From assembly GCF_017104565.1 (NCBI RefSeq), contig NZ_JAAGPD010000008.1, positions 124,001 to 188,000 of the forward strand: a stretch of 64,000 nt of DNA. The letters run 5' to 3'. The stretch is from Paraburkholderia sp. Tr-20389. Its GTDB lineage: Bacteria; Pseudomonadota; Gammaproteobacteria; Burkholderiales; Burkholderiaceae. Positions 1-54,485 of the stretch are shown here, piece by piece (within the stretch, counting starts at the first letter, position 1; each line of letters opens with the position of its first letter). A program made the translations under genes and the position numbers. Under the pieces are notes generated by a model. The model had not been told where the DNA came from. It worked only from the letters and a program-made list of their open reading frames with translations, and did not search any database.

Positions 1-36
1 GTCAGGATTGGCTGCAACGGTGTGCTGATGCTTCAT
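1..36 (-). CDS. start of an unidentified gene, cut by the window edge
   Basis: Only the first twelve codons are inside the window; on the minus strand they read MKHQHTVAANPD. A good ribosome binding site (AAGGAG) lies just upstream at about 43-48. The gene continues the leftward operon that begins near 4045, about 110 bases after the shikimate-dehydrogenase-like gene. Too little is visible to assign a function. A transporter would fit a small catabolic operon of this kind, but that is a guess from context. Confidence 0.6.
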   Translation of the reverse strand, partial: MKHQHTVAANPD

Positions 37-110
37 GTCGTCTCCTTCAGATCTCGATGCCGCAGCCGTACCTTGCGGACGCGCGGGTCGTTACCCTTCC
101 AATCTGCCAG

Positions 111-129
111 GCCTCCTCTGACGGGAGGC
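111..129 (-). terminator. short hairpin in the intergenic gap of the leftward operon
   Basis: GCCTCC (111-116) and GGAGGC (124-129) form an exact six-base-pair stem with a seven-base loop, just after the stop of the shikimate-dehydrogenase-like gene. No T-run follows, so this is a weak terminator, attenuator or RNA-processing candidate rather than a clear intrinsic terminator. Confidence 0.3.
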
Positions 130-147
130 TCTCGATGCAGTCTCGCC

Positions 148-999
148 CTAGGCTTCGCTTGTCGAGCACTGTCGTGCTTCGCCTGCTTCCACCCGCGCTA
201 TCTCGTCGAGCAGCGCGATACTCATGACGTCGAGCGGTGCCGGCTTGCCGGTATAAAGCTCGATCTGTCCGCAGAACTGATGCAGCAGCATTCGCGTTCC
301 GTCGACGACACGGCATCCGATCGCGGTGGCATCGCGAACCAGTTTTGTGCGCACAGGCAGGAACGCTGCGTCCATCACGAACAGATGCGACTGCAGTTGC
401 CGCCCCGCCAGCGGATTGACGTCCGGTGCACGAAAGCCCGCGGCTGTCGCATTCACCACGCCGTCGAAATCTCCAGGTCGAAAATCGTCGAGCACGCCGC
501 CGAATGCGATGTCGAAATCGCGAGCGAGCGCCTCGCCGCGCGACGCTGTCCGGTTGAACACCGTGACCTGTGCACCCGCGCGTTTCGCGCCCCAGGCAAT
601 CGCGCGCGCCGCACCGCCCGCGCCAAGCAGCGCGATGCGCTGACCCGCAAGCGCCGTCACCTCTTCGAGTGCACGCACGGCCCCCGTGCAGTCCGTGTTG
701 TAGCCCGTGAGATAGCCATCGCGGTTGTCGATCGTATTGACTGCGCCGATCTCGCGCGCGGTCTCGTCGAGGGCATCGAGGTGCGCAATGACCGCCTGCT
801 TGTGCGGCATCGTCACGTTCATGCCGCGTATGCCGAGCGTACGTATCGCCTGAACGGCGAGCGCCGCGTCGTCCGCGCCGAAGCTCACGAACGTGTAGTC
901 GATGCCGATTGCCCGATAGGCTGCGTTATGCACTTTCACGTTGAACGTGAACGGCTGGCCCGCCAATGAGCCGCATAGCGTGGGAATCGAATGGGGCAT
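148..999 (-). CDS. shikimate dehydrogenase family protein (AroE-like paralogue)
   Basis: The 283-residue protein belongs to the shikimate/quinate dehydrogenase family (NADP(H)-dependent oxidoreduction of dehydroshikimate-type substrates). Visible hallmarks are the catalytic-lysine motif NVTMPHK, then GAVNT and GYNTD in the substrate-binding half, and a Rossmann GAGGAARA nucleotide loop near the middle. Start ATG 999 is chosen because GGAGA precedes it and homology begins at MPHSIP. The longer in-frame extension to 1260 runs back through the upstream dehydrogenase gene and is rejected. It lies 13 bases after that gene. Its setting in a catabolic operon suggests a specialised role rather than housekeeping aromatic biosynthesis; a second paralogue lies at 58848-59720. 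Confidence 0.9.
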   Translation of the reverse strand: MPHSIPTLCGSLAGQPFTFNVKVHNAAYRAIGIDYTFVSFGADDAALAVQAIRTLGIRGMNVTMPHKQAVIAHLDALDETAREIGAVNTIDNRDGYLTGYNTDCTGAVRALEEVTALAGQRIALLGAGGAARAIAWGAKRAGAQVTVFNRTASRGEALARDFDIAFGGVLDDFRPGDFDGVVNATAAGFRAPDVNPLAGRQLQSHLFVMDAAFLPVRTKLVRDATAIGCRVVDGTRMLLHQFCGQIELYTGKPAPLDVMSIALLDEIARVEAGEARQCSTSEA

Positions 1000-1012
1000 G
1001 GTGGCTTCTCCG

Positions 1013-2020
1013 TCAGATCCTGGACAGGTCGAATGCCGACACGGGCGCTGCGCCGTCGAGCACGCGCAGCAGGTTTTCCGTTGCGAGTTCGGCCATGGCC
1101 CGCCGCGTTTCGTGAGTGGCCGAGCCGATGTGAGGCAGCGGCGTGACCTTCGGGTGGCTGCGCAGCGGCGAATCGTGCGGCAGCGGTTCGACGGCGAACA
1201 CATCGAGCCCGGCCGCACGCAAGTGACCGCTGTCGAGCGCCGCCAGAAGCGCGTCTTCACGCACGATCGCGCCCCGCGAACCGTTGACGAAGATCGCGCC
1301 GGGTTTCATCGTCGCGAAGGCCCTGGCGTCCATCAGGCCGCGTGTCTCGTCGGAGAGCGGCAGCGTCAGCGCGACGATATCGGCGCGCGCCAGCACGTCG
1401 TCGAACGATGCGCGCTGCACGCGCCCGTCGAGAACGGCGGGCACGGGCACGTCGAACGGATCGTGATAGATCACAGGCATCTCGAAGCCGAGCGCAGCGC
1501 GCCGCGCCACAGCCTGGCCGATGCGTCCGAAGCCCAGCACACCGAGCGTCTTGCCGTGCACATCCCATCCGAACAGGTCGTCGCCGATGTTGCGCGTCCA
1601 GCGGCCTTCGCGCACATGATTCGACAGTTCGACCAGCCGTCGCGACGTCGCGATGATGAGCGCGAATACCGTGTCGGCCGTGGTCTCCGTCAGCACGCCC
1701 GGCGTGTGACAGAGCGTGATGCCGCGCTGTTTGAGAAACGGCAGCTCGTAGTTGTCGACACCGACCGAGATGCTCGAAATGACGCGCAGGTTAACCGCTT
1801 CGGCAAGCTCGGAGGCGCCGAGCTTGTAGCTCGAACCGATCAGGCCGCATGCATCGCGCAGCGCGTCGCGAAAGCGCGGCAACTCGTCGGCGCGCCTCGG
1901 ATCGGCGACGACCACGTCGTGACGTTCAGCGATGCGCCCGAGCAGATCGTCGGGAATCTTGCGGAATACAACTACGTGCTTGCGTGAAGTGCCCATACGA
2001 ATGTTGACTCGCTCATTCAT
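1013..2020 (-). CDS. D-isomer-specific 2-hydroxyacid dehydrogenase (glyoxylate/hydroxypyruvate/2-ketogluconate reductase type)
   Basis: The 335-residue protein has the two-domain D-2-hydroxyacid dehydrogenase architecture. Visible landmarks are ISSISVGVDN (substrate loop), the NAD-binding loop GVLGFGRIGQ near residue 160, the catalytic-arginine segment NGSRGAIV, the DVFAVEPLP segment and the catalytic histidine in PHIGSATHET. This arrangement is that of the GhrB/TkrA subgroup, NAD(P)H-dependent reductases of glyoxylate, hydroxypyruvate or 2-ketogluconate. Together with the gluconate-5-dehydrogenase-like SDR upstream, it suggests sugar-acid metabolism. A second in-frame ATG at codon 9 (1996) is an alternative start. 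Confidence 0.9.
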   Translation of the reverse strand: MNERVNIRMGTSRKHVVVFRKIPDDLLGRIAERHDVVVADPRRADELPRFRDALRDACGLIGSSYKLGASELAEAVNLRVISSISVGVDNYELPFLKQRGITLCHTPGVLTETTADTVFALIIATSRRLVELSNHVREGRWTRNIGDDLFGWDVHGKTLGVLGFGRIGQAVARRAALGFEMPVIYHDPFDVPVPAVLDGRVQRASFDDVLARADIVALTLPLSDETRGLMDARAFATMKPGAIFVNGSRGAIVREDALLAALDSGHLRAAGLDVFAVEPLPHDSPLRSHPKVTPLPHIGSATHETRRAMAELATENLLRVLDGAAPVSAFDLSRI

Positions 2021-2035
2021 GAAGTTGAGGAAGGG

Positions 2036-3223
2036 TTAGCGCGGAGTCGTGCGTAGCGACGAAGGACCGCCCGTGAGTGCGATTCGCGTACCCGTATCAT
2101 GCAAATGGCCACCGTCCACCGCATACAGCGCAAGCTGTTTCTCGACATTGAACTGGACGATCAGATACTTGCTGTCCGCCGTGAACACGATGCCTTGCGC
2201 CGCTTCGCCGCCTGGGACTTCCGCCACCTTCGCCGCCTGCCCGTTGCGGATGGCGAACAGCACGACCTTGCCGCGCGCGTGACGGCCGGGGTTGTCGGGC
2301 GTGAGATTCGAGCCGTCCATTGCCTGCACGCCGATCCACTTGCCGTCGGGCGAGATCGCGACACCTTCCGGCAGGGATGGAACGCTCACATGCTGAACGG
2401 CGCGAAACGGCTCGTGCGATACGTCGATGAGCGTCACCGTGTCTGCATCGCCTGCGAGCTTGCCCTCGTACGACGGCAGTCCGGCGAGGCCGACATCGCT
2501 GACGACTGCCCACTTGCCGTCGCTGGAGACGTCGACGGTATAGGGCGCCACGCCGCTCGAAAGACGCATGCCGCTGTCGGTCACATGTCCTTGCGTTACG
2601 TCGAGCACGGCCACGCCCTGTTCGTCGCGCAGTGCGACGAGTGCGTGTCGGCCGTCGTGGGTGAAGCTCACACCCGCAAGACGCTTTTTCGCGATCTTCA
2701 GCGTATCGACGATCGCCGCGTGATTACCGTCGATGCCGAGCACCACCACGCTGCCGTCGACACATGCGACGAGCGCGAGACGGCCACTGCGATCGATTGC
2801 GATACCTTGCGGATGACTTCCTATGTCGAGCCGCGTGACGGCAGGCGGCGAAGCCCGCATGTCGACGATCTGCACGAACGAATCCATCAGCAGTTTCTTC
2901 GCGTCCCTGTCGTAGCGCGTCGGTGCGCCGACGAATGCGAGCGATGCATCGGGCGTGATGGCGACGGCTTGCGGCGGCCCCTGGATGCCGTTTTCGACCT
3001 CGACCTCGACCGTCACGTTGGGCGGGAAGTGGCTTGCGTCGAGCAGCGTCAGCGTGTCGGGGCGAGGATCGGCGGGATAGGTGTCGCGTCCCTCGACGCG
3101 CTGATACTTGCCGTCATTGCCCGACACGATCCAGTCGGAAGCGTGGGCACAGCAGGCCGTGAATGCGAAGGCAATGCCCGTCAGCATGCGGATACGACGA
3201 TGGCGCGTCGCTTGGCAATACAT
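2036..3223 (-). CDS. exported beta-propeller protein (YncE/lactonase-like)
   Basis: The 395-residue protein starts with a basic stretch and a hydrophobic segment ending CCAHASD, a likely Sec signal peptide cleaved after residue 28 or so. The remainder repeats a motif of about 45-50 residues (VAITPDASLAFVGAP, IAIDRSGRLALVAC, VSFTHDGRHALVAL, VSSDGKWAVVSD, VAISPDGKWIGVQA), the signature of a YncE/lactonase-type beta-propeller. A periplasmic sugar-acid lactonase or binding role would suit the neighbouring dehydrogenases, but the repeats alone do not show catalysis. It sits in the same leftward operon, 15 bases before the hydroxyacid dehydrogenase. Confidence 0.85.
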   Translation of the reverse strand: MYCQATRHRRIRMLTGIAFAFTACCAHASDWIVSGNDGKYQRVEGRDTYPADPRPDTLTLLDASHFPPNVTVEVEVENGIQGPPQAVAITPDASLAFVGAPTRYDRDAKKLLMDSFVQIVDMRASPPAVTRLDIGSHPQGIAIDRSGRLALVACVDGSVVVLGIDGNHAAIVDTLKIAKKRLAGVSFTHDGRHALVALRDEQGVAVLDVTQGHVTDSGMRLSSGVAPYTVDVSSDGKWAVVSDVGLAGLPSYEGKLAGDADTVTLIDVSHEPFRAVQHVSVPSLPEGVAISPDGKWIGVQAMDGSNLTPDNPGRHARGKVVLFAIRNGQAAKVAEVPGGEAAQGIVFTADSKYLIVQFNVEKQLALYAVDGGHLHDTGTRIALTGGPSSLRTTPR

Positions 3224-3268
3224 GATCGATGTCTCCTGTTCGTTGTCGATGTCGTTCAGGCGTGCGCG

Positions 3269-4045
3269 TCAGACCACGCTGGTAAGGCCGCCGTCGACAA
3301 AGAGCGTTTGCCCGTTGACGAAGCTCGATGCATCGGATGCGAGAAACACAGCAGCCCCGCACAGTTCGTCGACATTTCCCCAGCGTCCAGCCGGCGTCCG
3401 CTTGCAGAGCCATGCAGAGAATTCCGGATCGTCGACGAGTGCGCGATTCAGATCGGTCGCGAAGTAACCCGGCGCGATCGCGTTGACCTGAATGCCGTGG
3501 CGCGCCCAGTCGGCGCACATTCCTTTGGTCAGCATGCGCACGGCGCCCTTCGAAGCGGCATACGGCGCGATGGTCGGCCTGGCCAGTTCGCTCTGCACCG
3601 AGCAGATGTTGATGATCTTGCCGCGCCCTCGCGGCAGCATGTGACGCGCCACGGCCTGCGAGACATGGAACACGCCGTCGAGATTCACGCTCATCAGTTC
3701 GTTCCAGTCCTGCGATGAAAAGGACTCAAGCGGCGCGCGGCGCTGGATACCGGCGTTGTTCACGAGAATGTCGATGGGCCCTGTATGCGCTTCCAACGCA
3801 TCGATCGCAGCCGCGACATCATCGGCTTTCGTCACATCGAAAGGCGCAACCGTTGCGTCCAGTCCTTCTTCGTGCAGGCGGCTCAGTGCATCTCGTGCAC
3901 CGTCTTGGTCACGTGCATTGATGACAACAGCCGCACCCGCCTCGGCAAGTCCGCGTGCGAGCGCCAGCCCGATGCCGCGAGAAGATCCTGTGATCAGGGC
4001 GCGCCGGCCGGTCAGATTGAATCGTTCGAGTGCTCTATTCGTCAT
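3269..4045 (-). CDS. short-chain dehydrogenase, gluconate 5-dehydrogenase-like
   Basis: The 258-residue classical SDR has the cofactor loop TGSSRGIG (near residue 20), NNAG (near residue 92), the catalytic serine region ICSVQSE, the YAASK Tyr-Lys pair, and NAIAPGYFATDLN after the active site. This pattern resembles IdnO-type gluconate 5-dehydrogenases, cytosolic enzymes that interconvert gluconate and 5-ketogluconate with NAD(P)H. Substrate assignment is by resemblance only. It is the first gene of the leftward operon and is divergent from the LysR regulator, with a 179-base shared promoter region. Confidence 0.88.
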   Translation of the reverse strand: MTNRALERFNLTGRRALITGSSRGIGLALARGLAEAGAAVVINARDQDGARDALSRLHEEGLDATVAPFDVTKADDVAAAIDALEAHTGPIDILVNNAGIQRRAPLESFSSQDWNELMSVNLDGVFHVSQAVARHMLPRGRGKIINICSVQSELARPTIAPYAASKGAVRMLTKGMCADWARHGIQVNAIAPGYFATDLNRALVDDPEFSAWLCKRTPAGRWGNVDELCGAAVFLASDASSFVNGQTLFVDGGLTSVV

Positions 4046-4148
4046 TGCGTGCGTAGCGCGTGAGATCGTCGGTTCCGCGCCGTTCCTCCATGACGTCTAG
4101 TTCACCGCAACGGCAGCCGCCGCGCCAATAGTCTTTCGTGACGCTGTT

Positions 4149-4163
4149 ATCATGAATCGTGAT
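4149..4163. promoter_or_regulatory. LysR-type regulator box between SDR operon and lysR
   Basis: ATCA (4149-4152) and TGAT (4160-4163) form an inverted repeat separated by seven bases, giving a T-N11-A core (T4150, A4162). This is the usual shape of a LysR-type regulator recognition site. It lies in the divergent region between the metabolic operon and the lysR gene, 62 bases before the chosen lysR start, where autoregulation and operon control are expected. Confidence 0.5.
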
Positions 4164-4224
4164 GACCGCAGAACGCTGGCGCCGCTTGCGAACACACGAC
4201 CCGGACGGACGGTTGGAGACGACA

Positions 4225-5115
4225 ATGGAACTGAAACATCTGCGCGCATTCGTCGCCCTGGCGGAAGAGTTGCATTTCGGTCGCGCCGCAGAGCGCCTGT
4301 GCATCGTGCAGCCCGCGCTCAGCATGCAGATCAAGTCGCTCGAAGAAGAACTGCAGGCCAAGCTGTTCGAGCGCGACCGCCACAAGGTGGCACTGTCGCA
4401 GACGGGTGCGCTATTCCTGCCCGAAGCGCGCGCGACGCTGCATCAGGCACAACGCGCGGAACAAACCGCGCGCCTTTCGTCCCAGGGGGAAATCGGCACG
4501 CTGCGGATTGCGTTCGTGTCGTCCGTGCTGCCCGAGTTGCTGCCCGCTCTCATGCGCGCGATGCATGAGCGCTATCCGCGCATCACGCTGGAACTCAAGG
4601 ACATGCCGACGCCCGACCAGATTGCAGCACTGCACGACAACAAGCTCGACTTCGGCCTCATCCGCCTCCCCGTGCATGGCACAGGCGTCGAAACACGCGT
4701 CGTGCTGAAGGAATCTTTTGTCGTTGCTGTACCGGCACGTCATGCGCTTTCCCGATTGAAGCTGATACGGCCAACGGATCTGCGTGAGCGTCCCGTCTTC
4801 ATGCTCGCACGCCGATACGCGCCCGGCTTCTACGACGAAGTTCTCGTTGCCTTCAAACAGCAAGGCGTGACCCTTCAGATCGAAAAGGAACTCGGCGAAT
4901 ACACGACGATGCTCGCACTCGTCGCGGCGGGACTTGGAATCGGGGTAATTCCCGCGCAAGCGGCAATCGCGCTGCCGCCCAAAGTCACGGCGAGACCGCT
5001 CGACCTTCGCAATCTTCGTACGGGTATTGGTCTCGCGTACACGCAACTCGACAGCGCGACGAAGCGTGCATTTGTCGACGTGGTCGATGAACGGATCGGA
5101 CGCGAATCGGCATAA
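4225..5115 (+). CDS. LysR-family transcriptional regulator
   Basis: The 296-residue protein starts with the standard LysR winged helix-turn-helix (MELKHLRAFVALAEELHFGR, then QPALSMQIKSLE) followed by the two-lobed effector-binding domain (residues about 90-290). The start at 4225 is chosen because family homology begins at MELKHL and GGAG lies seven bases upstream. An in-frame extension back to 4159 adds an arginine-rich tail with no family similarity and would cover the putative operator. Divergent from the metabolic operon, it is probably that operon's regulator; the ligand is unknown. Confidence 0.9.
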   Translation: MELKHLRAFVALAEELHFGRAAERLCIVQPALSMQIKSLEEELQAKLFERDRHKVALSQTGALFLPEARATLHQAQRAEQTARLSSQGEIGTLRIAFVSSVLPELLPALMRAMHERYPRITLELKDMPTPDQIAALHDNKLDFGLIRLPVHGTGVETRVVLKESFVVAVPARHALSRLKLIRPTDLRERPVFMLARRYAPGFYDEVLVAFKQQGVTLQIEKELGEYTTMLALVAAGLGIGVIPAQAAIALPPKVTARPLDLRNLRTGIGLAYTQLDSATKRAFVDVVDERIGRESA

Positions 5116-5162
5116 GCGTTCGTGCAATGCGTGCTCGTCGGCAATTCCCCTCCTTGCCCGCA

Positions 5163-5210
5163 TGAAAATTCAGTGTTATTTTTTCATGAAATTTCACGAA
5201 TGAATTTTCA
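5163..5210. promoter_or_regulatory. palindromic operator upstream of the polyamine genes
   Basis: TGAAAATTCA (5163-5172) and its exact reverse complement TGAATTTTCA (5201-5210) flank a perfect ten-base palindrome TTTCATGAAA (5182-5191). The array is strikingly AT-rich in a GC-rich setting and ends 11 bases before the oxidase start codon, overlapping where a promoter or ribosome binding site would be. Repression by the PuuR-like protein encoded two genes downstream is the simplest reading. Confidence 0.6.
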
Positions 5211-5221
5211 CGGGAGCGCCC

Positions 5222-6511
5222 ATGTTCGCGCAGTCGGCCCAACACGTGACGAGCTACTACGCCGGTACGCTGTCCGCGCCAATCCCGCTGCATCCCGCGC
5301 TGCACGAGCGTCTGGAGGCCGATGTGCTGGTCGTCGGCGCGGGTTTCAGCGGGCTGCACACCGCGTTGCGGCTCGCGTCGGCGGGCAAGCGCGTGATCGT
5401 GCTCGAGGCGAGCCGCGTCGCGTGGGCCGCGTCCGGGCGCAACGGTGGGCAGGCGCTGCTGGGCTGGTCGTGCGACATGCAGCCGCTCGAGGATTCACTG
5501 GGTCGTGCGCGTGCCCGTGAACTCTGGGACAGCATGCGCTGGGCCGCCGCCGAAATTCGCGATCTGCCGGTACGGCATGGTTTCGACATCGACTATCGTC
5601 CGGGCAGTTTGTGGGCCGCTGTCCGTTCCCGCCGTGCCGCGTTGCTCGAACGGGCGCGCGACGAGGCGGCCGAGCGCTGGGGCTACGATCGCCTGCGCGT
5701 GATTGCGCGCGACGAGATGTCCGAATGGATCGGCAGCCCGCGATATCTCGGCGCGCTCTACGATCCGGAAGCCGGTCATCTGAATCCGCTCAAGCTCGCA
5801 CTAGGCCTCGCGCAGGCATTCGTGCGCGCAGGCGGCCGGATCTTCGAACAGAGCCGTGTGCTCGACTATCGCGAGACGTCGTCTGGCTACGTCGCGCGCG
5901 CCACGAGCGGAGAAGTGCGGGCGGACGTGCTCGTACTTGCGTGCAATGCCTACATCGACCGGCTGGATCAAGAACTTGCGAGGCGCCTGCTGCCCGTCGG
6001 CACCTACCAGGTGGCGACCGAACCGCTCGATCCCGAACAGGCCCGCTCGCTGCTGCCGCGCAACAGCTGCGTGATCGACAATCAGTTCGTGCCCGACTAC
6101 TTCCGGCTGAGCCCCGACAACCGGCTGCTGTTCGGCGGCGGCTGCACGTATCTCGGCGGTATTCCCGCGAACATCGCAGAGGCCACGCGCCGTCCGCTCG
6201 AACGCGCATTCCCGCAGCTACGCGGTGTGAAGGTCGAGTTCGCATGGGGCGGACACCTTGACATCAGCATGCGCCGCACGCCTGACATCGGCCGTCACGC
6301 TCAGCGTTACTGGCTGCAAGGCTATTCGGGTCACGGCGTGCTGCCCACGCTCGCGGGCGCGCGCGCCGTCGCCGATGCAATCCTCGGCGACGACAGGCTG
6401 CTCGCGCTGTATCAGGGCATCCGCAACCCAAGCTTTCCTGGCGGCGAGCGGCTAGCCGCACCGCTCGAAGCAATCGGTAAGGCCTGGTACCGATTGCGCG
6501 ACACAGTCTGA
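5222..6511 (+). CDS. puuB: gamma-glutamylputrescine oxidase (FAD-dependent)
   Basis: The 429-residue D-amino-acid-oxidase-family flavoprotein has the FAD dinucleotide loop VVGAGFSGLH (near residue 38), the RNGGQ segment typical of PuuB-like and sarcosine-oxidase-like enzymes, and a C-terminal GYSGHGVLPT segment that closes over the flavin. PuuB oxidises gamma-glutamylputrescine to gamma-glutamyl-aminobutyraldehyde with H2O2 release. It is followed after 15 bases by a PuuR-type regulator and then by a PuuA-type synthetase, which makes this assignment stronger than the fold alone. An aldehyde dehydrogenase and a PuuD hydrolase are not seen here. Confidence 0.85.
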   Translation: MFAQSAQHVTSYYAGTLSAPIPLHPALHERLEADVLVVGAGFSGLHTALRLASAGKRVIVLEASRVAWAASGRNGGQALLGWSCDMQPLEDSLGRARARELWDSMRWAAAEIRDLPVRHGFDIDYRPGSLWAAVRSRRAALLERARDEAAERWGYDRLRVIARDEMSEWIGSPRYLGALYDPEAGHLNPLKLALGLAQAFVRAGGRIFEQSRVLDYRETSSGYVARATSGEVRADVLVLACNAYIDRLDQELARRLLPVGTYQVATEPLDPEQARSLLPRNSCVIDNQFVPDYFRLSPDNRLLFGGGCTYLGGIPANIAEATRRPLERAFPQLRGVKVEFAWGGHLDISMRRTPDIGRHAQRYWLQGYSGHGVLPTLAGARAVADAILGDDRLLALYQGIRNPSFPGGERLAAPLEAIGKAWYRLRDTV

Positions 6512-6526
6512 ACAAGGAACCGCTTC

Positions 6527-7081
6527 ATGAACGAGCAGGAAGAAATAGAAGGCCTCGCGATCCTGATCCGGGATCTGCGCAAGCATCGCAAGGTCACGCT
6601 GAGCGAACTGGCCGACAAGATGGGGCGCTCGGTGGGCTTTCTGTCGCAGGTCGAGCGCGGGCTGTCACGACCGACGGTCGCCGACCTGACTGCGATCTGC
6701 GACGCGCTCGACACGCCGCACACCTATTTCTATAGCTTGAGCAAACCTCGCTCGGTGCCGTGGGTCACGCGTCCCGGAGAGCGTCGCACGTTGTACTACG
6801 CCGAGGGCATCACGGACATCCTCGTGTCGCCGAACATGCGCGCGCGCTTCTCGATGCTCGAAAGCCATCTCGCACCAGGTGCAAGCAGCGGCGAGCGCCC
6901 CGTCGACGACCGCGACGAACAGGGCGGCTTCGTGCTCGAAGGCGAACTCACCGTTTGGCTCGACAACGATGAACCCGTCACGCTCGGACCGAACGACGCT
7001 TTCCAGGTGCCCGCGCGCGCACGCTTCCGCTACGCGAATCTCACCGACCAGCCGACACGGGTCATCTGGGTCTTCACCTGA
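6527..7081 (+). CDS. puuR: XRE-family regulator with C-terminal cupin (PuuR-like)
   Basis: The 184-residue protein has an N-terminal helix-turn-helix (LSELADKMGRSVGFLSQVER, residues about 25-45) and a C-terminal cupin barrel (residues about 110-180, with EQGGFVLEGELTVWL and LGPNDAFQVP). This is the PuuR architecture: a repressor of putrescine catabolism that lets go of DNA when the polyamine signal rises. Lying between the oxidase and the synthetase, and downstream of the palindromic array at 5163-5210, it probably controls this cluster. The exact inducer is inferred. Confidence 0.85.
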   Translation: MNEQEEIEGLAILIRDLRKHRKVTLSELADKMGRSVGFLSQVERGLSRPTVADLTAICDALDTPHTYFYSLSKPRSVPWVTRPGERRTLYYAEGITDILVSPNMRARFSMLESHLAPGASSGERPVDDRDEQGGFVLEGELTVWLDNDEPVTLGPNDAFQVPARARFRYANLTDQPTRVIWVFT

Positions 7082-7229
7082 GTTCGCACGGGCGGCGTAT
7101 CGCTCGTCCGCGCAGATCAGCTCGCATACCACGCAGCTTCGGCGGACTGCCGCATCGCGAACGTTCGCCGTTCGAGTTCGTCTCAACGTCGTCACACACC
7201 GTCGCTCCAGCACGCCGAGGAAGAGAATC

Positions 7230-46313: not shown

Positions 46314-47411
46314 TCAAGGAGTCGATTCGACCGTTGAGTAGCCAGATTTGATGTCGTTGCCTGCCGGCGGCCCCGATCCTGCAGCAGCGTCCGTTTCGTT
46401 GTCGCTTTTTGGCTGTGGTTCAGTCGATTTCAAACCGATATACGTCGCCCCGCTGATGCCAATCATGATCAGCGTATAGGGTTCGAGAGCCGGCATCGAC
46501 GCAGTCGCGACCACCTGATAGATGAACATCACACCGACGACAACCGTGAACACCAGCATCTGCACGCGATGTATTGCGACACCGCTTTCATCGCTGACGA
46601 GATCTCGGAAAAAGCGCGGCATCTTTTCACTGGGAAAGCTCGTTTCCCGCGCCAGATCGACGCCGCGAGAACCGACAGTCAGCACGCTATAGATACCCAT
46701 GAGTGCAAGTGCCTGCGCCGAAAGCGGTGGCATCGTTCCTGACGCGATCCATTCGAAAATGTATGAACCCACTATGATCACGGTCCACCACGCCATCTGC
46801 GTGCGCGCAAGACTGAATGTTCTCTTGTTGAAGTCAACACTCGTACTGCTCCCGACGTCACGCAATAGCGACGTCTTCGCACCCAGATAAACGAACAGCG
46901 CGACCACCACGACAAACGCAAACACACCCGCCCATAACTTCCATAACGGCGACCAGACGAACTGCGCGGAGGCGCCGCTCACAGCGATGTCCTTGTCGCT
47001 TTCGTCGGATACGCCGACATCGATCTGCCGGACCCTGGCCGTACCCGGTCCGGCCCAGGGCGAGCCGATCAACGTGCGCCACGCGACGGCCGTTTCAGGC
47101 GCAGGAGGATCCGAGTCCTTTCGCAATAGAAATTGTATGTGCCCGATCTCCTGATCGGGCGTGCCGGCTGCGACATGATCTTTATAGTTTCTGCAACCCT
47201 GCGCCGCGATGCCCGTATAGGCGCCGTCGACAAGAAGCTTGTACTTCGTAACAACAGAAAGTGGTGGGCAAGGGGTACCAATGGGAACGGAGACTATGTC
47301 GCCCAGTGCCGTCGAGTCGGGTGAACCGGCAGCGGGTGTCGCGACTGCATGCATAGAAGACGAAACCGACACGATGACAAGCATCGCGAACCAACGCGTG
47401 ATCGCTCTCAT
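46314..47411 (-). CDS. multi-pass membrane protein with signal peptide, unknown function
   Basis: The 365-residue protein starts with a signal-like segment (MRAITRWFAMLVIVSVSSS). A periplasmic-like region with four cysteines follows (IGTPCPPL, AAQGCRNYK), then about five hydrophobic segments (LWAGVFAFVVVVALFVYLG, WTVIIVGSYIFEWIA, ALALMGIYSVLTV, MLVFTVVVGVMFIYQVV, LIMIGISGATYIGL). ATG 47411 is preferred because GGAGGAG lies six bases upstream; the longer start at 47429 overlaps the lysozyme gene stop. No family was recognised. It is the second gene of the leftward accessory operon. Confidence 0.72.
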   Translation of the reverse strand: MRAITRWFAMLVIVSVSSSMHAVATPAAGSPDSTALGDIVSVPIGTPCPPLSVVTKYKLLVDGAYTGIAAQGCRNYKDHVAAGTPDQEIGHIQFLLRKDSDPPAPETAVAWRTLIGSPWAGPGTARVRQIDVGVSDESDKDIAVSGASAQFVWSPLWKLWAGVFAFVVVVALFVYLGAKTSLLRDVGSSTSVDFNKRTFSLARTQMAWWTVIIVGSYIFEWIASGTMPPLSAQALALMGIYSVLTVGSRGVDLARETSFPSEKMPRFFRDLVSDESGVAIHRVQMLVFTVVVGVMFIYQVVATASMPALEPYTLIMIGISGATYIGLKSTEPQPKSDNETDAAAGSGPPAGNDIKSGYSTVESTP

Positions 47412-47425
47412 GATCTCCTCCGTTG

Positions 47426-47929
47426 TCATTTGAGAAACAGTGCGCGTTCGGCGTTTCTTCTATCGAGAAGACCTTTTAGAAACTTCCCCTGCGCGTAACA
47501 CCACCGTGGAAACTGATTGGCGGCCGCCTGCATCTGGTTTGCGTTGATCTCTTTGAGCAACGTAGACGATCGGAGGTTAGCCAACCCTAAATTCATCACG
47601 AAGCTCGACAACGCGCCATACTGAAAATTGTTTAGCGCAACCGTCACCACCGACAGCACACCGCTTCCGGCCTGCATCAGATCCGTGGCGAGCAGCGCGT
47701 CTGCCTGATTAAGACTGATTCCGTCGGGGTAGAGTGCCTTGACTCTGTTCAGATTGGTGCTCCCGCGCAGAAATTGCCCGTCGACGGAAATTGCGTGACC
47801 CCACCCTATCGTCCATATTCCGACGGGGTCCATGTACGGATGAATGTCGCCGACCGCGAGGCCGGGAATGCCCTCGAAGCATTTGACGAGGTTGATGGTG
47901 TCGAGATCGACAGGACGTGGTTGTGCCAT
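47426..47929 (-). CDS. GH24 lysozyme (endolysin-like)
   Basis: The 167-residue protein has the GH24 phage-lysozyme catalytic set: Glu19 in KCFEG, then Asp34 and Thr40 in HPYMDPVGIWTIGWGH. An insert of about six residues (AVGDIHP) lengthens the usual Glu-to-Asp spacing. It has no signal peptide, so like classical endolysins it would need a holin or cell lysis to act. As first gene of the leftward operon next to an eCIS, it is a candidate for particle release by cell lysis, though direct evidence is lacking. Confidence 0.88.
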   Translation of the reverse strand: MAQPRPVDLDTINLVKCFEGIPGLAVGDIHPYMDPVGIWTIGWGHAISVDGQFLRGSTNLNRVKALYPDGISLNQADALLATDLMQAGSGVLSVVTVALNNFQYGALSSFVMNLGLANLRSSTLLKEINANQMQAAANQFPRWCYAQGKFLKGLLDRRNAERALFLK

Positions 47930-48475
47930 GGTGCCCTCTTCGTCTGATACCCCGTTTCTCTCGTGTTTCTAACCGGCTATCCGGTATTCGTTGTGAGTTG
48001 TTATCTGAAGAATCTGTCACGTCGAATGGACGGAGATATGTTCGCTGGCACACACAATCCGGCGACATTTCACAACGGCACTGCGAGACCCGACTTATCG
48101 CCCACATCCCTTTCAGCACGCTTACCAATATTCACAAGCGGCACCCGCGCGTTACCGGTTTCGGTGTCAGCGCGATTCTTCGTCAATCTAAAGGGGCATC
48201 ACACAACGTGGATCTGCACTAGACGTGACATGAGTTGAGGCGACGAACCGCGTTGATCGTGGCGACCAGGGGACAGGCAGTTGCACGCATCGGTAGCGCG
48301 CACGCAATCGAAAACCTTATGAGGTAGCACCTATCCAGGAGGTCTCCGAACTGGCGCCTCAAAAATGAACGAACGGACCAGCACGACCGTGCCCCACTCG
48401 TTGGATATCGGCATTCGCCGACGTTCGCCCATCAACGCCGGGGGCGCTGATCGGTGATATGAACCGACAACATCT
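47930..48475. other. gene-free interval between the lysozyme operon and the caspase module
   Basis: No credible gene occurs in these 546 bases; short open frames here have no coding character. It should hold the promoter of the lysozyme operon and the 3' end of the conflict module. An exact inverted repeat ACCGG-CTAT-CCGGT (47972-47985), 43 bases upstream of the lysozyme start, is a possible operator. Confidence 0.45.
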
Positions 48476-49159
48476 CTATCCACGCAGAGCCTGGATTGCT
48501 TCATTGATATTTTTTGCAGCCTCCTGCTCGCCGTTATGCAGAACTGCCTCTAGCCGTTGCAAGACGGAGACGATTGAATTTACCGTATCTTCATCGCCAA
48601 GGTCTCTTGCTCGCCGGTAGCTCCGCCAAGCTTCATCGCCCAGCCCTAGGAGCAATTGACATTCTGCAAGATCGGCCCACGCCCAACGATCGTTTCTCCG
48701 TTCACCTTGTATCTGTCGACTGATTGCTCCCACTGCCCGACGCAATTCTTCCGTTTGCTCGTCGAGCCGAGATGATCTTCTCTCCAACGGCAAAGTGATT
48801 GCGTTCACCAGATTGTACGAACTCGCAACTTCCAGTCTTGGTGAATCTTCATAAATTCGTCCTCGTTCGAAGCAGGCCTGGGCTTCGTCGAATCGATCGA
48901 GTCGACGATAGTTGCCACCTAACATCCCCAGGCAGTCCGCCAGGTGATACGCCAGTGTTTTAACCGCAGCGGAGGCCGCTCCGTTATCGTGCAATTGCGC
49001 AGAGAGCGGCGAGTCATCCATGACGGCGATTGCGTCTTGCAAGAACTCAATAGCACTTTCAATGTCGCCTTCGTCCCGACTATCCTTCGCTTCTTCTTTG
49101 CGAAGCTTCGCACGCCCCACCAGCCGTGCGATCTCAATCTCGGTGTTTAACTCGCTCAT
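48476..49159 (-). CDS. TPR-like helical protein of the caspase module
   Basis: The 227-residue protein is all-helical, with repeated TPR-type helix pairs (AKLRKEEAKDSRDEGDIESA, YRRLDRFDEAQACFERGRIY, LAECQLLLGLGDEAWRSYRRARDLG). Its ATG overlaps the caspase stop (ATGA), so the two are translationally coupled. TPR proteins linked to bacterial caspase-like proteases often act as sensors, adaptors or substrates. Its function here is inferred from that association. An alternative is a simple structural partner. Confidence 0.75.
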   Translation of the reverse strand: MSELNTEIEIARLVGRAKLRKEEAKDSRDEGDIESAIEFLQDAIAVMDDSPLSAQLHDNGAASAAVKTLAYHLADCLGMLGGNYRRLDRFDEAQACFERGRIYEDSPRLEVASSYNLVNAITLPLERRSSRLDEQTEELRRAVGAISRQIQGERRNDRWAWADLAECQLLLGLGDEAWRSYRRARDLGDEDTVNSIVSVLQRLEAVLHNGEQEAAKNINEAIQALRG

Positions 49160-51552
49160 GGTAGTGCCTTCTTAGCTGCCGCCAAATCCTTCACCATCTT
49201 TGACGTCGCCTTGATCTCCTCTAACAAATCGTCACGCTTGACTTTACGTGCCCAACGTCGAACCTGCGATGACAAAAGCTCGAACTGGTCCAGCAATCGC
49301 GTGTTTTCCACAATTTCCTCAGGACGCCATCGCCGCGAAATATATAACCACGCAGCCAGACGCCGGTCTGCAGCAGCCTCGCGAGCCGCTACAACCAGGT
49401 CGGGATTGACTTCATGGAAAAGCACTGGAGAGATACCGGTACTCTCCTGATCGTCGCTTTCCAGAATGTTGGCGCTTCGAACAAGCTCATCAACCAATGG
49501 CAGCGCGGCCGGCTGTGCGTGATAGTCCAACTCAGAGCCCACGGCAGCATAGATGAAGTTGGTGCTACCTTTACGGTTCAATTCCAAGCTCGTCTCAAAA
49601 CGAGTAATCATCTCGTCGTAGACAGACGTGTTGCCGGGAATCGGGTTGTACATCACGGGATTGAAAAGTTTCAGCATGTCACGTACATGGGAAGGCAAGC
49701 TCTCAGAGTTTTGAAGCGAATTGGCTTTGGAATCCATTACATGCACGGCACCAAGAGGATTGGTAGCCATTCTGACACCGGCCTCGAACGAGACGTTAGC
49801 ACGAAGATTTGTCCAATCGACCAAACACATGTCGACAGTACGGATCGATTCAAAAAGTGTCTGAGCAACAAGTCGGGGAGTTTTCAAATCCAATAGACGA
49901 ACAAGAGCGGGGCTTTCACTCGCACGACCAGTGGCCTTCAGCACCCTCTGCATGACCTTACCCGGCAATTCCTTTTCTAACCGCCGCCAGTTGCTTTTCG
50001 TGTACTCGTGCCCGAACGGGCAGAGCACCAGGATCCGCTCGCTGTACTGAACCGGGCGATACGCTGCCGATTCCACTCCGAGCTGACGCACCGAGTCAAA
50101 TGCTGGTAGATCGAGGTAGTGAGGGAGATTTGCGAGGTCGCGGAATCCGGTGACGATCTTCCCCCCGATCAGTTCCCACGGTCGCCGTCCTACCCCTTTC
50201 TCTTGTTGGGCTTCAGAATGCGACGCCAGGTTCAGCAATTGCAGATTAAACGGTACCGCCAGGTCAGCACCGATCGTGAAGTCACCGCCAATGCTGGCGA
50301 TAGTTAGTCCGCGACGCGCAACAGCTCGAATACCAAGCAACATCATCGTTCCGGGGTCCCAGTCGGTTAGGTCAAAAACCGCGACCTCAGCCCGGCAAAG
50401 GGCTAACACCGCTTGGCACAACGACGCCTCGGACTTGAACGCCCGGTCAACGACCAAGTTCGACTGTATGAAGCCCCCATCTGGCCTCTCCGCTGATACT
50501 TGAGGGAGGCCACGGCTGGCTCGGTAGTTATTCGCCGCTGCCATTATTTGCGGACTGAAATTTTCCCATGCGATCCGGACCTCGTCGGTCAATGGCGATT
50601 GCGTACTGGACAGTTCAACCAGGCGGCCAACGATAAGCGCATGTATCGCTCCTTGATCGCCGAACGAGATTGGATCCAGTGCACCATGTTCCACTGTCAG
50701 AACTGATGCCGCGGCCTCATCCCTTTGATCGTCTCCAGCGCAAACCGGGAACATAGGGATAGACCCGATGTCCCCCTCTTTTTGCTCTGGAACATGGATT
50801 TGCGGTCGCACGCCGGTGTCGCCGAACCGTTGCCGAATTACATGATCAGCGAGGCCGTGAACCTGCCTCAGAGACAAAACACTGGGCGACTCTGAAGGAT
50901 TGTTCAATACATCGAGCAATGCGCCCGTGAACATCGTATATGTTTCGACGCTCGGGGCCTCCGCGTAGTCGTCAGGGCCCGCCGCACACAGAACCGCGGT
51001 CCCGCGCGCGGGCAAATCGTCCCGTGCCTCGAGTTCGATCTCGGAGATAACGCGGGTCACAACCGCCTCAACGGCCATTAATTCCTTTGCGGCAGCCGCT
51101 GAGAAGCACGCATCGATTATGTAGAACTTACGAGCAAATCGAGCAATCTTTTTGACCGTTCGCTGAAGTGCCTGGAATCGATACGAATACTCAGGCGCGT
51201 CCGGTTTCAGACTACGTAGGGCGAGGTAGTAATCTCTCCTGTCCCCGAAGAAACCATGGCCTACGTAGTAGACGATAACATCAAGGGGACGGCAATCCTC
51301 CGGTTTCCGCATGGCGGACTGAAGAAATAATTCAAGTTGATCATTGAGGTCTGTTGGACGACGATCATCGTCAAATAACCACAAAAGATTGCCTTGCGGC
51401 AGATTGAATTTCGACGCATCCAAAAGGTATCGCCTGATCTCTTCGGCCGAGTTCTTGAAGCGTTCATTCGACAACGCATCATTGTCCGGATAAACGCTTG
51501 CTCCGAGGATCACTACCAGAGTGCGCTCGGGGACTGGCCGCTCAGTGTTCAT
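49156..51552 (-). CDS. caspase-like protease fused to two TIR/deoxyribosyltransferase-like domains
   Basis: The 798-residue protein has an N-terminal caspase/C14 protease (residues about 10-260) with the catalytic pair His99 in VYYVGHGFFG and Cys149 in FYIIDACFSA. Two further domains follow: residues about 330-440 (AEVAVFDLTDWDPGTMMLLGIR) and about 500-615 (ILVLCPFGHEYTKS, then CLVDWTNLRANVSFEAGVRMA). Their acidic-TN/elG pattern recalls nucleoside 2-deoxyribosyltransferase-like (DRHyd) and TIR-like folds. The C-terminus (about 690-798) is helical. The gene is coupled to an EACC1-like gene upstream and a TPR gene downstream. A role in suicide immunity is inferred; what triggers it is unknown. 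Confidence 0.83.
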   Translation of the reverse strand: MNTERPVPERTLVVILGASVYPDNDALSNERFKNSAEEIRRYLLDASKFNLPQGNLLWLFDDDRRPTDLNDQLELFLQSAMRKPEDCRPLDVIVYYVGHGFFGDRRDYYLALRSLKPDAPEYSYRFQALQRTVKKIARFARKFYIIDACFSAAAAKELMAVEAVVTRVISEIELEARDDLPARGTAVLCAAGPDDYAEAPSVETYTMFTGALLDVLNNPSESPSVLSLRQVHGLADHVIRQRFGDTGVRPQIHVPEQKEGDIGSIPMFPVCAGDDQRDEAAASVLTVEHGALDPISFGDQGAIHALIVGRLVELSSTQSPLTDEVRIAWENFSPQIMAAANNYRASRGLPQVSAERPDGGFIQSNLVVDRAFKSEASLCQAVLALCRAEVAVFDLTDWDPGTMMLLGIRAVARRGLTIASIGGDFTIGADLAVPFNLQLLNLASHSEAQQEKGVGRRPWELIGGKIVTGFRDLANLPHYLDLPAFDSVRQLGVESAAYRPVQYSERILVLCPFGHEYTKSNWRRLEKELPGKVMQRVLKATGRASESPALVRLLDLKTPRLVAQTLFESIRTVDMCLVDWTNLRANVSFEAGVRMATNPLGAVHVMDSKANSLQNSESLPSHVRDMLKLFNPVMYNPIPGNTSVYDEMITRFETSLELNRKGSTNFIYAAVGSELDYHAQPAALPLVDELVRSANILESDDQESTGISPVLFHEVNPDLVVAAREAAADRRLAAWLYISRRWRPEEIVENTRLLDQFELLSSQVRRWARKVKRDDLLEEIKATSKMVKDLAAAKKALP

Positions 51553-51555
51553 GTG

Positions 51556-51909
51556 TTACCGGCCAGGATGGTCACTTGACTGCAGTGCTTTAGCGATTTT
51601 TGCTGCATCACTGGAGTTTCCTTTAAATATAACTCTGCCGTCACATTCAATCACTAACGTGGCCTCCCGCTCACGGGCCATGAAAGCCGCGAGTCCTTTC
51701 GCTATGGCTATAACCGCCGGAGTTCCTAAAACCAGAACCAACGTCGCACCAAGGTCCATCGATTCGGTGCGATCACGTTCTATCCTTGCTTCAACGTGCG
51801 GCGTGGTATCCAAGAGAGCATCTTTTAGAATCTGCGCTTGCGCCCCTGCTTCTGCAGGCGATAGTTCCTCGAAGCGAATCAAGAATTCTTGCTTTTCCGG
51901 CGTTTCCAT
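51556..51909 (-). CDS. EACC1-like small membrane-segment protein
   Basis: The 117-residue protein resembles effector-associated constant component 1 (EACC1): an N-terminal acidic segment, a hydrophobic stretch TLVLVLGTPAVIAIAKGLAAF near residues 60-80, then REREATLVIECDGRVIFKG strands. EACC1 proteins are found next to caspase-like, trypsin-like and other effectors in bacterial conflict systems. Start ATG 51909 has GGAGGAAA upstream; the frame's extension to 52014 is not needed. It ends three bases before the caspase gene, which lacks a strong ribosome binding site, implying coupling. Confidence 0.7.
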   Translation of the reverse strand: METPEKQEFLIRFEELSPAEAGAQAQILKDALLDTTPHVEARIERDRTESMDLGATLVLVLGTPAVIAIAKGLAAFMAREREATLVIECDGRVIFKGNSSDAAKIAKALQSSDHPGR

Positions 51910-53575: not shown

Positions 53576-53687
53576 AAAAAACAAAATCTCAACGGCTGAA
53601 TGCATTTCAAATAGCGAATTCCTGCATCGTCTTGCGATGTGAGCGAATCCACGATCACGAAGTCCTCACTTCAGCGAGGGTATGAAC

Positions 53688-54485
53688 ATGGATATCAAAC
53701 CGTTCGATGGCGTGATTCTTAAATTGGGCTCCAACGCATCCGAAAAAGTCACACTGGTGCAGAATAGGCTTCGCGAATTGGGCTATGCCGCGCCTGAGAG
53801 CGGAATCTTCGACGCGCAGACAGAGTCTGTCGTGAAGCTGTTCCAGGCTCAACACTCGGATGACAGCGGGCTGCCGCTGAAGATTGATGGCGAGGTCGGG
53901 TTCCATACCTGGACCGCGTTGTTCGGCGTGGTACCCACGGTCGTCCAGCCCATCGCGCAACTATTGGCGCAGGCGCTTGCCGTGGCTACATCGCAGGATC
54001 ATCAAATGGAAGTGCCGCCTGGCTCGAACCGAGGGCCGATGGTCGATGAGTATCTGCGCGCGACCGGTATCGATCCTACCCAAGGCAGTCCTAACTCGAG
54101 ACCGTGGTGCATGTGCTTCATGTACTGGGTGTTTTTACAGGCCGCGCAACACCTGAACCGGACAACACCTCTGCCGAAGACGGCGAGCTGTCATCAGCAT
54201 TGGGTCGCGGCGGCGAACCTTCCGAACGTCAAACGAATCACGCAGCAGCAAGCCCTTGATACCCGGAGCCTGATCCAGCCCGGACTCATCTTCATCCTCG
54301 ACTTCGGTGGCGGGATGGGACATACGGGAATCGTTGAATCGGTGCTTCCGGGTGGAGCGCTCCAGACGATCGAGGGGAACACCAACACGGACGGCTCTCG
54401 CAACGGCGTCGGGGTGTTTCGCTTACAGCGGCGCAAGCCGTCGGATTCCGTGTTGACGGGCTTTTTGGACTACTCACACGCTTAG
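53688..54485 (+). CDS. peptidoglycan-binding and CHAP amidase protein
   Basis: The 265-residue protein has an N-terminal PG_binding_1 domain (residues about 10-75: VTLVQNRLRELGY, then IDGEVGFHTWTALFG) and a C-terminal CHAP/NlpC-like domain with a catalytic cysteine in RPWCMCFMYWVF and the partner histidine in GHTGIVE, followed by EGNTN. CHAP enzymes cleave peptidoglycan amides. It lacks a signal peptide. Start 53688 fits the GAGGG ribosome binding site seven bases upstream; 53682 is too close. Small two-domain enzymes of this shape are common as cell-wall effectors or phage-derived lysins. Confidence 0.87.
   Translation: MDIKPFDGVILKLGSNASEKVTLVQNRLRELGYAAPESGIFDAQTESVVKLFQAQHSDDSGLPLKIDGEVGFHTWTALFGVVPTVVQPIAQLLAQALAVATSQDHQMEVPPGSNRGPMVDEYLRATGIDPTQGSPNSRPWCMCFMYWVFLQAAQHLNRTTPLPKTASCHQHWVAAANLPNVKRITQQQALDTRSLIQPGLIFILDFGGGMGHTGIVESVLPGGALQTIEGNTNTDGSRNGVGVFRLQRRKPSDSVLTGFLDYSHA

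Follow-up and report, generated by a model that had tools for sequence, protein, structure and literature searches.

A rare EACC1-caspase-TPR gene trio of Paraburkholderia carries an asymmetric pair of DRHyd-like domains and is predicted to be a conflict module

EACC1-caspase systems have been described as System 4, a predicted two-gene conflict system that is found often in actinobacteria and sporadically in proteobacteria (Kaur et al. 2020, PMC7159879), and Table 1 of that paper, cited here from excerpts as are the other two papers below, gives predictions in 671 organisms. Up to 50 alternative domains occupy the C-termini of the caspase proteins, the variable C-terminus is assigned the effector position, and membrane sensing combined with autoproteolysis has been proposed (PMC7159879). 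DRHyd is listed among NAD+-processing effectors, and CATRA ternary systems are named as caspase-dependent (PMC8195603); DrHyd domains are also presented as relatives of TIR that act as NADases or cyclases, and inactive TIR-DrHyd-SLOG domains as nucleotide sensors (PMC9503650). The excerpts of PMC7159879 name DRHyd twice, each time for other systems, and a caspase-DRHyd example may be present in its figures or supplements. Here we describe a trio of minus-strand genes at 48476-51909 of a 64,000-nucleotide stretch (the window) of Paraburkholderia sp. Tr-20389 (contig NZ_JAAGPD010000008.1, positions 124,001 to 188,000), which encodes an EACC1-like protein, a caspase protein with two DRHyd-like domains and a tetratricopeptide repeat (TPR) protein, and whose architecture is a new variation on the EACC1-caspase conflict systems that Kaur et al. 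predicted.

A reading made from the sequence alone had placed three coupled genes at this position, and the open reading frames were located there in the order EACC1-like, caspase and TPR, with a 3-nt gap followed by a 4-nt overlap (Table 1); the set is an operon. The genes are real: homologs are kept in G737, a genome of the same order and another family, and dN/dS is low between G737 and a metagenome-assembled genome (MAG) of Piscinibacter: approximately 0.18 (dN 0.0226, dS 0.127) for the gene that is a fusion in these two relatives, and approximately 0.03 (dN 0.004, dS 0.118) for EACC1, which indicates purifying selection on both. No promoter was found in a scan, terminator-like sites numbered 8 against 4.5 expected, and Rfam gave no match over 46-54 kb.

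Table 1. Window coordinates of the trio, its domains and the adjoining border
Feature	Coordinates	Strand	Basis or remark
EACC1-like gene (117 aa)	51556..51909	-	GGAGG precedes ATG; hydrophobic segment LVLVLGTPAVIAIAKGLAA and small-residue patch
Caspase - DRHyd1 - DRHyd2 - C-terminal extension protein (798 aa)	49156..51552	-	
Caspase domain, residues 13-240, His99/Cys149	50833..51516	-	PF00656; NF047832 below cut-off; His/Cys invariance in 8 rows
DRHyd1, about residues 326-450, Leu405 at the expected active-site Glu	50203..50577	-	hhalign; Leu in 3 copies
DRHyd2, about residues 503-670, motif LRANVSFEAGVR with Glu590	49543..50046	-	hhalign; alignment
Conserved C-terminal extension, residues 671-798, without known domain	49159..49542	-	46.8% identity to G737; no Pfam match over cut-off
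TPR protein (227 aa)	48476..49159	-	Fused onto the caspase chain in two relatives
Truncated amine-dehydrogenase heavy-chain gene start (upstream region and first codons)	48072..48314	+	Rearrangement border beside the trio

Against PF00656 the caspase domain scores 27.4 bits, above the cut-off of 21.4 (E 3.2e-6). His99 and Cys149, which the sequence-only reading had named for its caspase-like protease, are present at these residues and, as the predicted catalytic dyad, are invariant in an alignment of eight caspase homologs. In a ten-row alignment His99 is only nearly invariant, because the homolog on a plasmid of Paraburkholderia sabiae (L019, 6073-7269) carries arginine there. The GHG motif of that protein reads GRA, on account of which it is probably inactive, and it has no recognised EACC1 neighbour.

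The EACC1-like protein is linked to its family by transitivity: it matches the EACC1 protein of locus L008 (E 1.1e-17), which in turn passes PF19953 (29.9 bits versus a cut-off of 23.6), so that its homology is predicted through L008 without a direct score. The same cut-off is passed by the genes directly 5' of the caspases in L002, L004, L005 and L008, and by the pre-caspase genes of L040 and L041 on Streptomyces and Kitasatospora plasmids. Counting distinct loci with a caspase protein match at E <= 1e-9 (the window, L022 of G737, L024 of the Piscinibacter MAG, L008, L002, L003, L020, L019, L004, L040, L041 and L005, with L042 outside the set), we found an EACC1-like gene directly 5' of the caspase in 9 of the 12. 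The pairing of EACC1 and caspase had been called a hallmark of conflict systems, a claim that is published as a prediction in PMC7159879. An EACC1 protein of such a system is expected to have one conserved transmembrane helix with a patch of small residues; the best 19-residue hydropathy of the window protein is 2.04, with a GTPA patch.

The C-terminal part of the caspase protein gave no match in NCBIfam or PADLOC, none over cut-off in Pfam, and none at E up to 10 in a sequence search of the PDB. With hhalign, each domain was compared to three target sets: 19 rows of conflict-type DRHyds, 10 rows of classical PF05014 proteins over the cut-off (10 of 17 loci) and 19 TIR_2 (PF13676) rows (from 30 loci, 20 taken and one dropped for a stop). 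The DRHyd rows derive from 17 of 20 loci (L110 was excluded because of stops, and L121 and L125 were left aside) together with L073 and L074; the set was grown from three seeds, of which L072, from the same genome as the window, lies at the cut-off of PF05014 (28.8 bits), with L073 and L074 below it. DRHyd2 matched the conflict-type rows at 95.8% probability (E 6.9e-9) over 97 columns and DRHyd1 at 86.1% (E 5.1e-6). Among column-shuffled queries (20 per domain against each of the three targets) the best of 60 reached 5.3% and 1.1%, and the caspase and TPR parts stayed at or below 1.3% against all three sets. The sequence-only reading had proposed two TIR/DRHyd-like domains; its DRHyd part stands, and its TIR part does not, since the TIR_2 rows scored 0.6% for DRHyd1 and 0.2% for DRHyd2 and Pfam gave no TIR match. 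Identity as a classical nucleoside deoxyribosyltransferase was likewise rejected, and the kinship of both domains is to conflict-type DRHyds because the classical rows score only 0.4-1.4%.

The two domains differ at the expected active-site Glu. In the DRHyd family, the Glu of the NxxYExG motif is the catalytic residue. DRHyd2 contains this residue, Glu590, within NVSFEAG, which aligns to the NPNVxYExG-type motif, and DRHyd2 is likely catalytic. DRHyd1 has Leu405 at the matching position, as do all three known copies (the window and two relatives); it seems to have lost the active site, is likely non-catalytic, and is perhaps nucleotide-binding. The C-terminal pair is thus asymmetric, with one domain having and one lacking the expected Glu. 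The homologous part of the caspase proteins in L002, L003, L004, L005 and L008 ends by residue 284 of the window protein, and the C-termini of the other caspase proteins look unlike one another. This combination of a constant caspase and a variable C-terminus is the hallmark published for EACC1-caspase systems.

The third gene is an integral part of the module. Its product matches several TPR models at E 3e-6 to 8e-4, with no score reaching the respective cut-off, and identity as the TPR-S sensor (PF20308) was rejected at 13.1 bits against a cut-off of 27.6. In G737 and in the Piscinibacter MAG, the gene after EACC1 encodes a single 995-aa protein comprising caspase, DRHyd1, DRHyd2, extension and TPR, and because the TPR part is fused to the caspase chain there we regard the trio as one unit. 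The arrangement that the sequence-only reading had proposed to look for elsewhere is therefore present in both genomes, in fused form. Between the window and G737, the caspase protein is 46% identical over 783 residues, EACC1 is 42% identical, and the separate TPR protein is about 50-52.3% identical to the TPR part of the fusion. By segment, the identities are 45.1% for the caspase, 22.6% for the linker, 53.6% for DRHyd1, 65.4% for residues 451-502, 48.8% for DRHyd2 and 46.8% for the extension. The two relatives are collinear and 94.2% identical over 15.7 kb. That the TPR part is naturally joined to the chain in some genomes and separate in another shows which parts must work together.

Compared with System 4, the trio shares a 5' EACC1-like gene that immediately precedes a gene for an N-terminal caspase with a variable C-terminus, but differs in the tandem DRHyd pair with one Glu-less member, in the long conserved C-terminal extension, in the third (TPR) gene, and in EACC1 and caspase scores below the curated model cut-offs. 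Likewise, DRHyd2 aligns with the conflict-type DRHyds through the motif, whereas the trio domains are too diverged for a Pfam match, are attached to a caspase, and include a first copy without the Glu. A literature search over titles and abstract openings found no caspase-DRHyd protein. CATRA stands for caspase and TPR associated, and those systems resemble the trio in combining caspase and TPR within a multi-gene set; the trio, however, has EACC1 in place of CATRA, and CATRA identity was rejected, since Pfam searches with the trio (E up to 1) and with its pieces and the fused protein (E up to 10) returned no such model.

The architecture is rare, as judged by searches that scored only a few candidates per genome. 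The 798-aa protein has matches at E <= 0.001 in 7 of 147 relatives and matches in 5 of 369 genomes of the class, its own genome included in both counts; the non-own matches fall within residues 7-284, with the exception of L006 and L007, which are short and weak (225-304), and no full-length match was found in the 146 other genomes near that of the window. The C-terminus alone matched only its own genome and G737 among 398 genomes of the phylum. A two-row profile against 349 genomes of the family of G737 gave matches at E <= 0.01 in six, namely two full-length (G737 and G1137), one short decayed fragment (G1068) and three weak (E 0.004-0.008). Among the weak matches inspected (L027, L028 and L029), L028 looks by eye like a chance match within an aroB-type gene. 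A scan of genome contigs with two peptide patterns returned one locus, L024 of the Piscinibacter MAG, which is counted together with G1137 as one. Phage genomes and viral contigs gave no match, and among plasmids five records matched the caspase part only, and five records matched the C-terminus with E of 0.7 to 10, no better than chance.

The trio is probably horizontally acquired. Its GC content is 0.51-0.54 (GC3 0.47-0.58), and its DNA gave no match in 146 other genomes (two candidates scored per genome). Ten other stretches of the same genome range in GC from 0.51 to 0.68. Just downstream, at 48072-48314, the sequence agrees with the beginning of an amine-dehydrogenase heavy-chain gene and then breaks off, which fits acquisition of the trio at a rearranged site. 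This element has a second copy in the same genome and matches in nine other genomes, and the whole gene (PF06433) is present at both places checked (contig C29 of the same genome, and G043); the alignment to the gene start led us to reject a non-coding RNA at this position.

Based on these observations, we propose, with rather more confidence than doubt, that the trio, probably acquired horizontally, is an EACC1-caspase conflict module of the abortive-defence type, with a predicted defence role. The sequence itself shows the gene order, the domain content, the TPR protein as an integral part, the DRHyd kinship of both domains and the asymmetry of that pair. In the proposed mechanism, the small EACC1 protein, perhaps inserted in the membrane, would keep the caspase protein inactive and sense a disturbance; a trigger would switch on the caspase, which would cleave itself or a partner; and DRHyd2, freed or reshaped, would hydrolyse NAD+ or another nucleotide, leading to growth stop or cell death. 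DRHyd1 may have a regulatory or pairing function through binding of a nucleotide, and the TPR protein may serve as a scaffold or second sensor. The company of the relative in the Piscinibacter MAG is of conflict type and favours this proposal: at 4-7113 (minus) of L024, divergent from EACC1, a caspase gene precedes one whose giant product combines CHAT and alpha/beta-hydrolase (LCAT-like) parts.

Several results weigh against the proposal. The window EACC1-like protein has no match to PF19953 at E up to 1 (nor is its gene among the seven places listed for its genome at E up to 10), and the G737 protein also scores below this model and has a best hydropathy of 0.58, with no clear transmembrane segment. 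EACC1 was recognised upstream of the caspase in none of L003, L019 and L020 (3 of the 12 loci), a call made from gene layout and a home-made model that missed L041, a Pfam-true EACC1. The caspase domain scores below the 140-bit cut-off of NF047832 ("caspase, EACC1-associated type"; E 4.3e-26, 91.7 bits); the caspases of the window, G737, L008, L002 and L003 lie at 72-108 bits, and the cut-off is passed by L005, L040 and L041. As to the DRHyd kinship, the queries were three-row profiles with two near-identical rows, the DRHyd1 match covers a short 57 columns, the classical rows do not respond to either domain, and DRHyd1 and DRHyd2 show no mutual match (1.9%). The nearer flanks of the trio, at GC 0.566-0.597, are also lower than the contractile injection cluster of the window (0.65), which blurs the edge of any island. 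The literature search mentioned above found no experiment on an EACC1 system, uses of the name in this sense being predictions.

The order of events could also be reversed, with the DRHyd domains as input: DRHyd2 would make or trim a nucleotide, or DRHyd1 would bind one, or both, to turn on a caspase that is itself the effector and cleaves cell or phage proteins. We consider this unlikely. In its favour, the Glu-less DRHyd1 is well conserved between the window and G737, more so than the caspase (as is the segment that follows it), and inactive TIR-DrHyd-SLOG domains are described as nucleotide sensors in the excerpts of PMC9503650; the published reading, on the other hand, gives the effector position to the variable C-terminus (PMC7159879, excerpts), and other EACC1-caspase loci show no match to the DRHyd part, so that a shared nucleotide input is not general. 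A further reading, which we hold to be quite improbable, is a nucleotide-gated caspase in one chain, where a product made by DRHyd2 from NAD+ or another nucleotide would be read in cis by the dead DRHyd1 to open the caspase, and EACC1 and TPR would determine the threshold; if true, messenger synthesis, sensing and protease output would reside in a single polypeptide. Also improbable, though slightly less so, is a housekeeping or stress-signalling role in regulated proteolysis rather than defence, for which one can cite the lack of a strong phage-defence model match in PADLOC (none for EACC1 and the caspase protein, and one weak match for the TPR protein, E 0.0057) and the position of the fused homologs in collinear chromosomal stretches of the two relatives; it sits poorly with the patchy distribution, the exchange of C-termini between systems, the low GC and the position at a rearrangement border.

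The sequence-only reading had further linked the trio to an adjacent injection system, and the contractile injection (eCIS-type) cluster at 13456-36129 is real and includes baseplate genes, with sheath, tube, CIS_tube, gp25, Pvc16_N and AAA matches over cut-offs and weaker hub and Baseplate_J matches; it lies about 12 kb from the trio. Lysozyme, CHAP and phosphoesterase genes lie between and beside them, and in G1068 the decayed DRHyd1-like fragment (L031, 6179-6634) lies approximately 3 kb from genes that by eye resemble TssA and Hcp of a type VI secretion system. It is nevertheless very improbable that the trio is cargo or a regulator of this system: the 18 kb around the G737 relative contain no homolog of a window open reading frame at E <= 1e-4 other than the trio (and its antisense frames), the scanned neighbours in L024 (part of its genes) are not injection genes, and the GC content of the trio differs strongly from that of the cluster. 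The link is probably coincidental, since the trio has a low GC content, adjoins the broken start of an amine-dehydrogenase operon, and has full relatives located next to another caspase/CHAT operon. The suggested defence island also found no support, as PADLOC added only weak partial matches for three of eight other window proteins. The observation made from sequence was thus correct and its interpretation partly so: conflict pairing, single unit and DRHyd likeness hold, TIR identity was rejected, and injection link and defence island found no support. The trio provides a testable handle on whether the protease is a switch or a weapon, and whether a dead DRHyd, with its natural Leu405, is a sensor.

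Genes for an AAA_16 ATPase and a phosphoesterase lie between the injection cluster and the trio, as do those for a putative membrane protein and a phage-type lysozyme. The last two overlap at 46314-47929 and could be a toxin-immunity style pair; the same pair is found in G067 (L055, 7931-9627), without the trio within 18 kb there. On the other side of the L024 locus are metabolic or cell-wall genes. A gene convergent with the fused caspase gene (L024 10142-10789, L022 164-808) gave no Pfam match over cut-off, and its product looks SLOG-like by eye (TQGSAGGDLL). Finally, at 53682-54485 the window encodes a protein with peptidoglycan-binding and CHAP domains that is 68% identical to one in G039 (L059).

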